From positions 1 to 49,345 of the forward strand of contig JANLFK010000019.1 of assembly GCA_024655945.1 (NCBI GenBank): a stretch of DNA of 49,345 bases, in the 5' to 3' direction. A program made the position numbers and the translations under genes. Origin of the DNA: a candidate division KSB1 bacterium. GTDB lineage: Bacteria; Zhuqueibacterota; Zhuqueibacteria; JANLFK01; Oleimicrobiaceae. A model generated the notes under the pieces. That model did not search any database and was not told where the DNA came from. It saw only the letters and a list, made by a program, of their open reading frames with translations. Shown here piece after piece: positions 23,772 through 35,049 of this stretch; the first letter of the stretch is position 1; every line of letters begins with the position of its first letter.

Positions 23772-23799
23772 AATTTAGAACTATTTTGCAAAAAGTCAA
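23772..23799 (-). promoter_or_regulatory. Candidate promoter for the unknown/NucS-like pair
   Basis: On the minus strand TTGACT (23794-23799), 16-bp spacer, TAAATT (23772-23777), in a locally AT-rich stretch. The -35 box overlaps the last codons of the upstream Nudix-like gene, so this pair has its own transcription start. The leader to ATG 23508 would be about 255 nt; 23509-23771 shows no gene. Confidence 0.5.
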
Positions 23800-24746
23800 G
23801 ATTTTTTTGCGGCCGTGTACTTCCAGAACCCTCGGTAGAGCCCGTAAACCCACAGACTGCCATAGGCAGAAGGCGTGAGCTCGCTGCGCCTTTTTTCCAA
23901 AAGCTGGCGAAGAGCAGGCGGCTCGTCCTGCACGGCGAGGAGGTCGACGAACTCGCCGGCACCGCGAGCGCCTCCTGCCCGGCGACACAGCTCCTGCAGG
24001 TCGCCCGGCACAGAACACGCGAAGACCAGTTCGGGCTTCTGATTGCAGCGGCTCTTGATGAGCCCTATGCAGCGAAGGGAATTCAGCTCGGCAGGTCGCA
24101 GGTCGAGCTCTTCACAAAGCTCGTTGCCGATTGCCACAAACGGGTGGGGCACCCCCGCCAGCACATCTACCCCCGGGTCGATGTGCCCGCCGAAGACATC
24201 CAACCGTCCGGGGAACTCACCGACGGTGTCGCTACGGCGCATAAGCGGCAGGACACCGCCCGCACTAACCACCACCGCGCTGACGCCAAGCACCCTGGGC
24301 AGGTGCTCTGCTCCCCAACGACGGACGATTTCCTGGCAATAAGCATTGGCAAAGAGGGCATAGAGGTAGCTTGTTCTGCCAAGGGAAAGGTGGAGACGGA
24401 AGCCATCCCACGAGAAGTTTCGGAGAAAACAGAGCGCCCCATCGAAGAGAACTGCACCAGGCCGCGCCTCACTGCAAAGTCGCTGCCAGTGATGGGTGGC
24501 AACGGCGACCATTTCGGCCGGGTACTGCGGCACCTGCGCGTCCCAGTGCACCTCCAGCTCCTCCTGCCCCACGGAACAGACCACCAGAACCTCGGCAGGC
24601 TCCTGGCTCTGTCCGGCGGCATGAGCCTCCCTATGCACACTCATCGCCCGCACCTGCAAGGTGCCCGTCAAGGTCTGCGTCACACGCCAGGCAAGAGAGA
24701 TGGCTGTGCGTGCCAAGAGCAGCAGGAGCGGACCGCTTTCGCTCAC
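23796..24746 (-). CDS. Nudix-like protein with divergent, extended Nudix box
   Basis: 316 residues from GTG 24746, overlapping the PduL stop by 4 nt (GTGA), so translation is coupled. A Nudix-type motif is interrupted: FGGHIDP is followed by an insertion (GVDVLAGVPHPFV) before AIGNELCEELDLR, so the REXXEE core reads NELCEE. A similar elongated layout occurs in NUDT22-like UDP-sugar hydrolases. The N-terminal part, SVGQEELEVHWDAQVPQYP, is not recognisable. Catalysis is uncertain because the Arg of the box is Asn. Its coupling to PduL suggests a role linked to CoA or acyl-phosphate chemistry, which is inference. Confidence 0.6.
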   Translation of the reverse strand: MSESGPLLLLLARTAISLAWRVTQTLTGTLQVRAMSVHREAHAAGQSQEPAEVLVVCSVGQEELEVHWDAQVPQYPAEMVAVATHHWQRLCSEARPGAVLFDGALCFLRNFSWDGFRLHLSLGRTSYLYALFANAYCQEIVRRWGAEHLPRVLGVSAVVVSAGGVLPLMRRSDTVGEFPGRLDVFGGHIDPGVDVLAGVPHPFVAIGNELCEELDLRPAELNSLRCIGLIKSRCNQKPELVFACSVPGDLQELCRRAGGARGAGEFVDLLAVQDEPPALRQLLEKRRSELTPSAYGSLWVYGLYRGFWKYTAAKKS

Positions 24747-25501
24747 ACGAAGACATTGTGCTGTTTGCCAAGATCGCGGGCCGCCGGTGTGACGATGACG
24801 CCGGGCTCCACGCGAATCTTTTGCCCCCGGAGGATGGCCTGGCGCACATCGTTCTCGGTGATGACCCTCCGCCCGTTCAGGTTAAAGTTGTAGCGCAGGC
24901 TGCTTTGCACGATGTACACCATGTCGCCGGTCTTCAGGCCTGCGGCGTTTGCCTCGTCCAGGTCGATGTGCATCTGCAGGCGGAAGGTCTCGTCGACGCG
25001 GACGAGGACGTTGCCAAAAATCACGGTGCGCAATTGCGCAGGGTCCGCCCCTGGCTGCGCCACGGGTGCCACAAACACCGCATCGCCGTGGCGCACCCCC
25101 AACTTGGCCGCTATCTCCGGGTTGACGTGAATGTGGCGGCGCGCCACCACCACGTCCTGATGGAGCGTCACCGAACCCTGCGGCCCGATGAGCACGGCCG
25201 CCTGGCCGGCAGGCAAGGGTCCCGCATCGCCCACCGGGCAATCCAGGCCAAGGCGGTAGGCGTCGGTGCGCGAGACCTCCACTTGCGTGCGGCTGCGCAG
25301 CGGTCCCAAGATGCGCATCCCCTCGATGGCCCCCTTCGGCCCGCTAATGGTCACCGTCTGCTCGGAGACGAACTGACCGCACTGGTAGAGCTCTCGTTCC
25401 CTGGTCAGCTCAAACCCCTTGCCGAACAGAACGTCCAGGTGCTCCCGGCACAAGTGGGCATGGCGGTTGGAAACGCCGACGGGGATCAGTATCCTTTCCA
25501 C
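24743..25501 (-). CDS. pduL: PduL-type phosphate acyltransferase with C-terminal extension
   Basis: 252 residues from GTG 25501 (SD GAGGAGGG). Two PduL repeats with the zinc-binding His pairs SNRHAHL (His14, His16) and RRHIHV (His123, His125). PduL converts acyl-CoA and phosphate to acyl phosphate and CoA, recycling CoA inside metabolosomes. Beyond the core, about residue 212 onwards, is a tail RRVITENDVRQAILRG ... VEPGVIVTPAARDL; similar ITExDVR...VTPxARD modules occur in several microcompartment-linked proteins. No N-terminal encapsulation helix is visible. It stands 54 bp after the aldehyde dehydrogenase gene. Confidence 0.88.
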   Translation of the reverse strand: MERILIPVGVSNRHAHLCREHLDVLFGKGFELTRERELYQCGQFVSEQTVTISGPKGAIEGMRILGPLRSRTQVEVSRTDAYRLGLDCPVGDAGPLPAGQAAVLIGPQGSVTLHQDVVVARRHIHVNPEIAAKLGVRHGDAVFVAPVAQPGADPAQLRTVIFGNVLVRVDETFRLQMHIDLDEANAAGLKTGDMVYIVQSSLRYNFNLNGRRVITENDVRQAILRGQKIRVEPGVIVTPAARDLGKQHNVFV

Positions 25502-25555
25502 GCCCTCCTCCGCTCAGCGCGTTGCAACTGGAGCCGGGTCACCATTCCCAGTCTT

Positions 25556-27142
25556 TCACCTCGTCTGAAGAAATTCGGCGACAATGCGCTCCACCTCTTC
25601 GTCGGTCAAACCGCTGCTGCCATAACGCCCTCGCGGCGCAGGCGACGGCTGGCGGGCATGGAATTCCGCCTGGGGAGCCTCTCGGCGCGAAATGCCCGCC
25701 GCCGGAGTCAGTGCCGCCTGGTACGGCGCACGCACATTCACCCTGCCATGCGTGAGCAATTCTGGGCGCCAATCGGTACTGCGCTCGGAACGGCGCAACG
25801 GCTTCGTCTCGTAGGCAACTCGTTTGATGTTCAACAGGTGCATGGGCGTCACGTTGTCTGTGGTGATGTTACCCCCGTACGTGCCGCAGCCCAGCATCAT
25901 GGATGGGTCCAGCTCGGTGGTGATCCCCACTGCTCCGTGCGTGCCGGGCGTATTGACCAGAATGCGGAAGGCAGGCTTCTTGAGGGCAAACTGCATAATC
26001 ACCTCCTCGTCCCGGGAGTGGATGACCAGCGTATGGCCGAGCCCGCCAAAGTTCAGTATTTCGATACAGCGCTCGCACCCGGCCTCCCAGCCATCCGCAA
26101 CGTAGAAGGCGATCACCGGCGAGAGTTTCTCGATGGAGAGGGGATAGTGAGGCCCAACCCCATCCAGCGGGGCGACCAGCATGCTGGTGTCGCGCGGCAC
26201 CGCTATGCCCGCCTTCTGCGCGATGACGTAGGCCGGTTGTCCGACGCAATCCGGGCTGACCGTGAGCTCGCGCGTCACCAAGGTGGCACCCACCCTGCGG
26301 CACTCGTCCGGGTTGAGAAAGTAAGCCTTGCGCGCCTGCAACTCGGCGATGACCTGGTCCTTGATGGGCAAATCGGCGATGATGGCCTGCTCGGAGGCGC
26401 ACACCGTGCCGTTGTCGAAGGTCTTGGAGGCGGCGATGTCCGCCACTGCCTTGCGCACGTCTGCAGTGCGCTCGATGAACGCCGGCACGTTGCCCGGCCC
26501 TACGCCGTAAGCCGGCTTGCCAGCGCTGTAGGCCGCCTTGACCAAACCCGCGCCGCCCGTTGCCAAGATGATGGCCACATCGCGATGGTGCATCAGCTCG
26601 TTGGTACCCTGGAGCGTAGAAAGGGTCATGCAACTGATGAGACCAGGGGGTGCGCCCGCGCTCTCTGCAGCCTGACTCATCACCGCCGCCGCCGCATTGG
26701 CACAACGCACCGCATTGGGATGGGGCGAGAAGACGATGGCGTTTCTGGCCTTCACCGCAATGAGGGATTTGAAGAGCACCGTGGAGGTGGGATTGGTGAC
26801 CGGCACAATGCCGGCGATCACTCCCATCGGCTCGGCGATCTCCAATATGCGTTTGCCGGGCAGTTCGTTGATCACCCCCACCGTCTTCATGTTCTTGATG
26901 AGGTTGTAGACATCCCGCGTGGCGAGCTGGTTTTTGGCTACCTTGTCGGCAACCACTCCGAAACCGGTCTCCTCCACGGCCAACTGCGCCAGTTGCTCTG
27001 CCGCACGAAAGCCGGCGTCTGCCATGGCCGCCACCACGCGGTCCACGTCCTTCTGGGAAAATTCCTTGAACTTGAGCTGCGCTTCGCGCGCCCGCACACA
27101 GAGATGGCGCGCCTGCTGCATGGATTCCAAGTCGCGATCCAC
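25556..27142 (-). CDS. CoA-acylating aldehyde dehydrogenase with C-terminal encapsulation peptide
   Basis: 528 residues from GTG 27142, 15 bp after the M20 gene. The catalytic Cys248 lies in [12 protein letters not shown], with [12 protein letters not shown] and the cofactor region PVTNPTS, as in EutE/PduP/AdhE-type enzymes that turn an aldehyde, NAD+ and CoA into acyl-CoA. After the catalytic domain comes a Pro/Ala-rich linker (about 455-510) and a terminal amphipathic helix [18 protein letters not shown] (511-528). That is the standard form of an encapsulation peptide that directs enzymes into bacterial microcompartments. No shell protein gene lies in the window. Acetaldehyde or lactaldehyde/propionaldehyde are likely substrates. 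Confidence 0.9.
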
Positions 27143-27157
27143 GACACCCTCGGCAAG

Positions 27158-28396
27158 CTATGCGTACAAGAAGAGGTGAGCAAACACCTTGGCATCGGCA
27201 AGAACATTGCTGATGCGACAATACTCATTGGGTTGGTGCGCGGTCTGGTCAATGGTCTCCCACACCACGGCTGGCAGTCCGGCACGCCGGAAATGGGCAG
27301 CCACCGTGCCGCCACCAATGCCCATCGGCACTGCTTTCACTCCCCGCGTCTCGGCTAAGGCGCGGGTCAATGCCTGCACCACCGGCGCGTCCACGGGCGT
27401 AGGCGGAGCCGCATCCTCGCGCTGGGGGAAGAAAAGCTCCACCTTCACGCCAAACTGTGCTTCCACCTCGCGCACCGCCGACTGCATCCAGGTAATGACG
27501 TCGTCCACCTTGTACGCGGGCAATACGCGGCAGTCAAAGTAGAACACGTCCTCCCCAGGGATCGTGTTGATGTTGGGCACGTTGGCCTCTTTTTTCGTGG
27601 GCTCGAACGTGCTGGTGGGCGGCGCGAAGACCGGATCGCTCTCCGGAAACGCTTGGTACAGCCCTTCTAACTTGACGATCAAGTGCGCCGCAGCTTTGTG
27701 CGCATTGATGCCCAAGGCCGGACGCGAGCCATGACACTGCTTCCCTATGGTCCTGAAGCCAACCCACAGGATGCTCTTCTCGGCCACTTCCACCATGGAA
27801 CCATCGGCATTTCCCGAGTCGGGCACGATGATGAGGTCTTCGGTGCCGAATAGGTGACGATGATGGGCAAGCAGGTATTGCAGGCCGTATTGGCTCCCTG
27901 TCTCCTCATCGGCCACCAATACCACGCCGACGTCATGGGCGGGACGCAGGCCCTGCTCATGGAGCGCGCGCACCGCCAGCAGCGAGGCGACCATCCCCTG
28001 TTGGTTGTCCTCAACGCCGCGGCCGTACAACAGGTCGCCATCCACTCGCACGCGATAGGGATCGCTTTGCCAAAGGCTGAGCTCACCGGGCGGCACAATG
28101 TCCAAATGCGAGAGGACCCACACGGTGCGACTGCTGTCGGCGCCCTTGAACCTGGCCACCAGGTTCGGCCGATAGCCACACGGCACGCGGGCATCCGGCG
28201 CTTTGATCTCCTGCAGCTCGTCCACGGGAAGGGTGGCGAGCAGCTTCTTGACATATTCGGCCTTGGCAACTTCACCCTCGCCACCGTTTTCTGGCGACAG
28301 GGCGGGTATCGCCGTCAATTCGATCTCCAACCTGATGACCTCGTCTCGATACCCGTCAATGCGCGCCGCGACCTGCGCAAAAGCATCTGCTTTCAT
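27158..28396 (-). CDS. M20-family metallopeptidase (ArgE/DapE/CPG2-like)
   Basis: 412 residues. Zinc ligands of the M20 family are visible: His97 and Asp99 in LSHLDIVPPG, Asp130 in GRGVEDNQQG, and the Glu164-Glu165 pair in ADEETGSQYG, with His in the end region TIDQTAHQPNEY. The central dimerisation domain is present. Members cleave dipeptides or N-acyl amino acids. It heads the operon with the aldehyde dehydrogenase and PduL genes (15 bp gap) and has its own promoter at 28439-28467. In comparable metabolosome loci a peptidase or amidase can release an amine or aldehyde precursor, but the substrate here is unknown. Confidence 0.82.
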   Translation of the reverse strand: MKADAFAQVAARIDGYRDEVIRLEIELTAIPALSPENGGEGEVAKAEYVKKLLATLPVDELQEIKAPDARVPCGYRPNLVARFKGADSSRTVWVLSHLDIVPPGELSLWQSDPYRVRVDGDLLYGRGVEDNQQGMVASLLAVRALHEQGLRPAHDVGVVLVADEETGSQYGLQYLLAHHRHLFGTEDLIIVPDSGNADGSMVEVAEKSILWVGFRTIGKQCHGSRPALGINAHKAAAHLIVKLEGLYQAFPESDPVFAPPTSTFEPTKKEANVPNINTIPGEDVFYFDCRVLPAYKVDDVITWMQSAVREVEAQFGVKVELFFPQREDAAPPTPVDAPVVQALTRALAETRGVKAVPMGIGGGTVAAHFRRAGLPAVVWETIDQTAHQPNEYCRISNVLADAKVFAHLFLYA

Positions 28397-33732: not shown

Positions 33733-35049
33733 TCACCGCATCTTCCGAAGAAGGCGGCTGCTTTCCTCTTCAGCTCTCCTCACGACTTCTTCCTCGTCCA
33801 CCACCAGCACGCGGCCCTGGTGCACGACGATGTTGCCGTCGATAATGACCGTGCGCACGTCCGATGAGCGGCACGCAAAGACCAGCTGGCCGTAGATGTC
33901 GTGGCCAGGACTGTTGTGGGGTCGGTGCACGTCAACAAGAATAAGGTCGGCCTTCTTGCCTACCTCGATGCTCCCGATCTGGTCGGCCAGGCCGAGGGTG
34001 CGCGCCCCGCCCAGGGTCGCCATCTCCACCACTGCCTGTGCCGGCAGGGCCCCTGCGCCCAGCCGCGCCCCCTGGATGAGGGCAGCCATGCGCATCTCCT
34101 GGAAGGCATCGAGGTTGTTGTTGCAGGCAGCGCCATCCGACCCAAGGGCCACGTTGATCCCCATTGCTCGCATCTCCGGCACCTTAGCGATGCCGGAGCC
34201 CAGCTTGAGGTTGGCGGTTGGGCAGTGCAAGACGTGCGTACCAGTCTCGCGCAAGATGGCCATCTCCTCATCGCCGAGCCAGACGCAGTGCGCCAGGCAG
34301 AGCTGCGGCCCGGTGAGACCAAGCCCGTGCAGGTAGGCAACATTGCCCTTGCCCGTCCTGCCGCGCACACGGGCGACTTCGTCACGGTGCTCGGCTGCAT
34401 GGCTGTGCACGCGCGCATTGCGCCGCCGTGCCTCCTCGGCCACCTGACGGTGCAATTCCGCAGAGCTGGACAGGGCGAAGCGCGGCGCAAAGGCATAGCG
34501 CAAGCGCCCCTGTGCCGCGCCATGCCAGCGGCGCAACAGGGCCACGCTTTCCTCCAAGGCGGCGGACGGCTCCTCACAAAGCGCACGCGGGATCTCGTCG
34601 CCGCAGTCCATCATTGCCTTGCCGCTGCTGGCGCGTAGGCCCAAAGCCTCCAGCTCGCTGAACACGACCTCGGTGTGGTGCACGCTGCCCATGTCCAGCA
34701 CGCACGTGGTACCGCCACGCAGGAGTTCGGCCACGCCCAGCCGCACGGAAGCGCGCATGGAACGTTCGTCGTGCAGCGCCTCGAGCGGCAAGATCCAGGA
34801 GCGAAGCCACTCCAGCAGGGGCATGCCGTCTGCCACATTGCGAAAGAGCGTCTGGCAGAGATGGATGTGCGCTTGCACCAATCCAGGGAGCAGCACGCAC
34901 CCCTCGCCGTCGATCTCGCGCCTGCCGCGCGCCGCCACCGTTCCCACTGCGGCAATCGTGCTCCCGTTGATGGCCACGTCCCCGGTGAGCACCTCCCGCC
35001 GCTCGTTGATGGTCACCACCGTGGCGCTGCGCACGACAATGTCCGCCAT
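33733..35049 (-). CDS. Amidohydrolase of the SAH/5'-deoxyadenosine/8-oxoguanine deaminase type
   Basis: 438 residues from ATG 35049 (MADIVVRSATV); ATG 35058 is an in-frame alternative. His61 and His63 in GLVQAHIHLCQ, the later HSHAAEHRDEV (His of the second site), LAHCVWL and GSDGAACNNNLD are the metal and substrate signatures of the MtaD/DadD/SsnA-like group. These enzymes deaminate S-adenosylhomocysteine, methylthioadenosine, 5'-deoxyadenosine or related bases. Substrate choice cannot be read from the sequence. It lies 19 bp before ade and 11 bp after the purine nucleoside phosphorylase. Confidence 0.83.
   Translation of the reverse strand: MADIVVRSATVVTINERREVLTGDVAINGSTIAAVGTVAARGRREIDGEGCVLLPGLVQAHIHLCQTLFRNVADGMPLLEWLRSWILPLEALHDERSMRASVRLGVAELLRGGTTCVLDMGSVHHTEVVFSELEALGLRASSGKAMMDCGDEIPRALCEEPSAALEESVALLRRWHGAAQGRLRYAFAPRFALSSSAELHRQVAEEARRRNARVHSHAAEHRDEVARVRGRTGKGNVAYLHGLGLTGPQLCLAHCVWLGDEEMAILRETGTHVLHCPTANLKLGSGIAKVPEMRAMGINVALGSDGAACNNNLDAFQEMRMAALIQGARLGAGALPAQAVVEMATLGGARTLGLADQIGSIEVGKKADLILVDVHRPHNSPGHDIYGQLVFACRSSDVRTVIIDGNIVVHQGRVLVVDEEEVVRRAEEESSRLLRKMR

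Follow-up and report, generated by a model that had tools for sequence, protein, structure and literature searches.

A probable core-enzyme satellite of a FRAG-like dispersed metabolosome in a candidate division KSB1 bacterium, with L-fucose as its suggested substrate

What purpose can an aldehyde dehydrogenase tagged for encapsulation and a PduL phosphotransacylase serve at a locus without shell genes? The question is raised by contig JANLFK010000019.1 (C19) from a candidate division KSB1 bacterium of the Oleimicrobiaceae (genome G000), the whole analyzed stretch of which—49,345 nt, referred to here as the window—was confirmed to contain no bacterial microcompartment (BMC) shell gene. The four open reading frames listed in the earlier note are all present on the minus strand: an M20 metallohydrolase (27158..28396; NF010589, 567 bits against a cut-off of 333), followed after 15 bp by an acylating aldehyde dehydrogenase of 528 aa (25556..27142), after a further 54 bp by the PduL phosphotransacylase (PTAC) of 252 aa (24743..25501), and, with a 4-nt overlap, by a Nudix hydrolase of 316 aa as called (23796..24746). 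Scans for promoters and terminators returned counts at chance level. The M20 gene, previously described as heading the operon, is indeed the first of the row, but it adjoins the dehydrogenase in G000, G004, and G019 only, that is, in this genus. Given no adjacency outside the genus, the M20 peptidase was rejected as an organelle part and is probably a co-transcribed passenger. The order dehydrogenase–PduL–Nudix, on the other hand, was seen again in G004, G019, G029, G031, G035, G040, G045, G054, G056, and G077, and in named KSB1 contigs; this triad is conserved, and the M20 gene is not. Elsewhere in the window, an open reading frame begins at 33733 whose homologues in G024 and G036 are likewise neighbours of the dehydrogenase.

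Type I BMC aldehyde dehydrogenases (AldDhs) carry their encapsulation peptide (EP) at the C terminus, and type II at the N terminus (Sutter et al., 2021; PMC8217296). The window dehydrogenase combines a PF00171 domain with a C-terminal amphipathic helix behind a flexible linker, the helix occupying residues 511-528 (25559..25612, minus strand) and falling, with its 18 residues, within the 15–20 aa of the type I definition. The best-scoring model for the enzyme is that of the acetaldehyde dehydrogenase TIGR02518, although the score (616 bits) lies just below the cut-off of 620. The helix had been singled out in the earlier note, which also allowed that homologues might lack it; they retain it, with 31 of the 59 dehydrogenase reading frames recovered from 66 related loci passing a strict tail pattern. 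The hosts of these tail-bearing enzymes are nearly all Ignavibacteria, KSB1, Kryptonia, and Bacteroidota, and AdhE-type relatives have no tail. Furthermore, a comparison of the window genome with two congeners showed a variable linker before the helix and almost constant sequence over 15 residues of the helix, with a dN/dS of the dehydrogenase within the genus of 0.02–0.05. By these sequence comparisons, the tail is not a chance feature, and the enzyme behaves as a type I BMC AldDh, a putative cargo protein.

A shell for this cargo is encoded elsewhere in the genome (3.94 Mb in 26 contigs, 97.7% complete). Two BMC-H genes lie at C3:262 kb, one tandem BMC-T gene, adjoining a PduS-like RnfC gene, at C3:227 kb, and three BMC-P genes (a PF03319 triplet) at C9:138504-139365, with no site combining BMC-H with BMC-P. 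The genome search proposed in the earlier note thus yielded all three kinds of shell gene, as well as a class II aldolase beside BMC-P as a possible signature enzyme, and the absence of a shell, which would have overturned the finding, was rejected on account of the genes on C3 and C9. Because this complete shell set sits at three other sites of the same genome, the window locus—which has the only PF06130 gene and the only close acylating dehydrogenase of G000—can be read as a satellite core locus, as was earlier suggested, in an arrangement that recurs across the class. Shell and cargo, then, need not be co-located for joint inheritance. In the phylum (79 genomes), BMC-P was found in 58 genomes, BMC genes in 59, and PduL in 46; shell genes occur in every one of the 19 genomes that encode a close homologue of the dehydrogenase (identity of at least about 51%), compared with 40 of the 60 others. 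The second BMC-H protein (L010 7373-7834) is extended at its C terminus by about 60 residues, SAP-like by eye, and similar long BMC-H2 proteins occur in the Planctomycetota loci L040, L041, and L043. Directly downstream of BMC-T/PduS, in this genus only, lie a fused CitD-CitE gene and CitF (L008 9406-12163; G000:C3:224405-227162), which were rejected as signature enzymes because they are genus-specific neighbours and produce no aldehyde.

PduL (PF06130, E 7e-63; NF011652 above cut-off) is preceded by a strong Shine-Dalgarno sequence (GGAGGAGG) and has no N-terminal EP. Instead, it ends in a C-terminal module (RRVITENDVRQAI...TPAARDLGKQHNVFV; 24746..24877, minus strand). The two features go together: PduLs of scattered sets have the module and no N-terminal EP, whereas those of consolidated loci show the opposite. 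The module, a small two-helix fold in the predicted model, has no match in the PDB or Pfam; it is, however, shared with the C terminus of Acidobacteria BMC AldDhs (hhalign probability 99%, E 3.5e-18), the common motif DVRxA...TPAARD being seen at L049, L051, L054, L055, L057, L058, and L065. The module may be a docking module. The window PduL also matches TIGR02536 weakly at this module.

The Nudix protein goes undetected by Pfam and NCBIfam, and its conserved part begins only at about residue 46. A profile of 15 homologues nevertheless retrieved human NUDT22 from the PDB (E 3e-29), and a Foldseek search with the AlphaFold model (pLDDT 85) again found NUDT22 (E 3e-19; runner-up 6e-7). The Nudix box (24108..24191, minus strand) retains its glutamates, with GGH (186-188), E209, and E213 invariant in the alignment of homologues. 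The sequence and fold matches extend across most of the protein, with an identity to human NUDT22 of about 24% in the structure alignment and, unlike the human protein, a bacterial gene tied to PduL. On profile and model evidence, the protein is assigned as NUDT22-like, of the UDP-glucose hydrolase family, and by homology it would hydrolyze an NDP-sugar. Its gene, which evolves faster than its neighbours (dN/dS 0.23–0.25), had been described as a divergent Nudix gene coupled to pduL. The gene is real, but the translational coupling is uncertain: at the 4-nt overlap, the start is a GTG codon without a Shine-Dalgarno sequence, and in a sister species the Nudix start lies 83 bp downstream of PduL. 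A conserved NUDT22-like partner is thereby added to PduL; the microcompartment literature searched held no Nudix partner of microcompartments.

The dispersed layout recalls a described group of organelles. FRAG1-7 have been characterized by scattered shell genes and a BMC-P triplet in Ignavibacteria-related phyla, and were ranked, with no named signature enzyme, among the types lacking one (Sutter et al., 2021; PMC8217296). In G000, the shell genes likewise stand at separate sites (C3:227 kb, C3:262 kb, and C9:139 kb) with no main locus, a BMC-P triplet is present, the hosts belong to the FCB group, and, as in FRAG1-7, an AldDh is proximal in few only. We therefore class the predicted system as a FRAG-like dispersed metabolosome, matched on layout and host group rather than on shell-protein phylogeny. 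It differs from FRAG1-7 in having a putative EP-bearing aldolase beside the triplet and a NUDT22-like gene after PduL. The papers on KSB1 and Zhuqueibacterota that were searched discuss no BMC apart from references.

This aldolase is a PF00596 class II aldolase of 265 aa, encoded a few bases after BMC-P3 (L011 11403-12200) and ending in the tail GDLYAELDRVTEETTARMIASLRQSSG. A PF00596 aldolase with a putative EP and linkage to shell genes is the arrangement of PVM-type organelles. Among the 58 genomes with BMC-P, the distance from the aldolase to BMC-P is at most 0.3 kb in at least 13 and at most 6 kb in at least 18 more, a tally that is a lower bound, as contigs break. Across the phylum, 41 of 47 shell-bearing genomes encode the aldolase with its C-terminal helix, and none of 8 shell-less ones does (Fisher P 2.5e-6, treating related genomes as independent), as judged by a pattern that shuffled tails pass at a rate of 1.4%. 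Solitary aldolase genes, too, encode the tail (G024, G035, and G057); among the exceptions, the aldolases of G044, G065, and G073 end Cys-rich and that of G059 has no helix. In the window genus, the strict pattern is missed in two of three species, including G000, so that the EP nature of its tail rests on position and homology. NCBIfam places the aldolase under the cut-off of every equivalog, including fuculose aldolase and oxotetronate phosphate decarboxylase. We propose from sequence and context that the class II aldolase is the signature enzyme of the FRAG-like organelle, splitting L-fuculose-1-phosphate to lactaldehyde. The 2021 catalogue had left FRAG organelles without a substrate; an aldolase whose tail is kept only alongside shells provides a testable one for this genus, and indicates that the cargo of dispersed organelles can be found by tail instead of gene neighbourhood.

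A comparable arrangement occurs in the ACI microcompartment of Acidobacteria (Sutter et al., 2021), in which the class II aldolase next to a BMC-P triplet bears an EP at its C terminus and the AldDh is encoded at a satellite locus. Most ACI AldDhs are 56-58% identical to the window dehydrogenase, and a tree of tailed FCB and Acidobacteria AldDhs does not settle the order among the FCB and ACI branches. Unlike in G000, however, one ACI BMC-H gene accompanies the aldolase and another the AldDh, the TPAARD module belongs to the AldDh rather than to PduL, and no Nudix gene was seen at the ACI AldDh loci examined. Inspection by eye of the genes surrounding the G000 BMC-P triplet turned up no recognizable hydroxyacid dehydrogenase, a feature of ACI.

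For the substrate, which was unknown in the earlier note, the evidence narrows to L-fucose by way of lactaldehyde. G000 encodes the isomerase and kinase that a PVM-type organelle for L-fucose or L-rhamnose calls for: FucI (NF008220, 847.8 bits; cut-off 775) and a rhamnulokinase-like kinase (502.6 bits, below the cut-off of 528), clustered on C5 with a GH29 alpha-L-fucosidase and a sodium symporter. Together with the aldolase at BMC-P, these genes suggest that the organelle breaks down L-fucose, a substrate that we infer. Consolidated loci in the phylum group the aldolase with a rhamnulokinase-like kinase, PduS, BMC-T, PduL, a type II AldDh, acetate kinase, and Lut-type genes. That of G013 comprises a DeoR-like regulator and rhamnulokinase-like kinase (both recognized from their sequences, the kinase also recovered in the kinase search), three BMC-P genes, PduS, BMC-T, BMC-H, and the aldolase, as well as acetate kinase, a type II AldDh, genes for Lut-type lactate oxidation, and a PduL that bears an EP at its N terminus. 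This predicted content fits a pathway that takes fucose/rhamnose to lactaldehyde and then lactate. The PVM and PVM-like organelles (Erbilgin 2014; Axen 2014) likewise combine a class II aldolase signature, PduL, and AldDh with lactaldehyde chemistry from fucose/rhamnose, but their loci are contiguous, whereas the G000 shell, aldolase, AldDh, and PduL genes are split over C3, C9, and C19 and the AldDh belongs to the acetylating TIGR02518 type. Another FCB-group organism, of the Latescibacteria, was predicted to pair fucosidases with a fucose/rhamnose BMC through 1,2-propanediol and propionaldehyde (PMC4454575); the proposal here is direct oxidation of lactaldehyde. A fucose function had not previously been suggested for the scattered organelle class. 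The substrate proposal is specific and testable, and the Nudix partner and PduL module are accessory features not found reported in the literature searched.

Taken together, the window locus is probably a satellite that encodes core enzymes of a single dispersed FRAG-type metabolosome acting on L-fucose via lactaldehyde. In the proposed route, alpha-L-fucosidase would release L-fucose, FucI would isomerize it, and the rhamnulokinase-type kinase would phosphorylate the product. The encapsulated aldolase would then cleave fuculose-1-phosphate to dihydroxyacetone phosphate and lactaldehyde, the tail-docked dehydrogenase would convert lactaldehyde to lactoyl-CoA with NAD+ as the acceptor, and PduL would form lactoyl-phosphate, recycling CoA. 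PduS and the BMC-T trimer may carry electrons across the shell, regenerating NAD+. As NCBIfam cannot name the aldolase, the lactaldehyde step is drawn from context. The same organelle could instead use acetaldehyde, with the aldolase splitting 5-deoxypentulose-1-phosphate in 5'-deoxyadenosine salvage, given that class II aldolases of the superfamily act on sugars of this type and that the dehydrogenase scores best on TIGR02518. Moreover, 5 of the 19 relatives that have a close dehydrogenase homologue yielded no fucose/rhamnose-type kinase (E 1e-50), and the presence of this kinase (45 of 58 genomes with BMC-P versus 10 of 21 without) is weakly informative as an organelle profile, so that fucose use and the organelle do not always coincide. 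Against acetaldehyde, FucI, the kinase, and the GH29 fucosidase are clustered in G000, and the consolidated relatives have a rhamnulokinase-like kinase beside the aldolase; this variant is considered improbable.

We likewise regard it as unlikely that two or more assemblies are involved, with dehydrogenase, PduL, and Nudix protein in a separate process and the aldolase working with another dehydrogenase. G027 and G029, each with six BMC-P genes, do combine a consolidated aldolase locus (type II AldDh) with a scattered set, but in G000 a minimal shell set, a PduL, and a close acylating dehydrogenase are present only once each, which leaves no second organelle to assign. G027, G029, and G070, with a consolidated aldolase locus and a tailed dehydrogenase, have one aldolase each, and the signature enzyme may therefore be shared. 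Very improbably, the organelle is a relic, lost or degenerate, with cytosolic enzymes and the tail a leftover or oligomer contact, since, for all that the shell genes are dispersed among housekeeping genes (BMC-H near ispE and others in several families), the shell and core reading frames are intact and under purifying selection (dN/dS 0.02–0.25, mostly 0.02–0.16), the scattering itself is kept across families of the class, and the tail is better conserved than its linker.

Extending the fucose reading beyond this genus is more tentative. It is possible, though we consider it doubtful, that FCB-group FRAG organelles in general are deoxyhexose lactaldehyde organelles, whose EP-bearing class II aldolase would have been overlooked because it often stands alone, and into which a NUDT22-type NDP-sugar hydrolase would be built, coupling nucleotide-sugar breakdown to the organelle.

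Two further observations concern the consolidated loci. G027 and G029 (L145, L146, L181, and L188) have two microcompartment sets, a consolidated one with a type II AldDh and a scattered one with a type I AldDh. In addition, at L150, L155, L158, and L161 and at L151, L152, and L160, some consolidated-locus PduLs have a short Cys-rich start (CxxCG) before the EP, and some EP-less aldolases end in a similar CxxCG motif.
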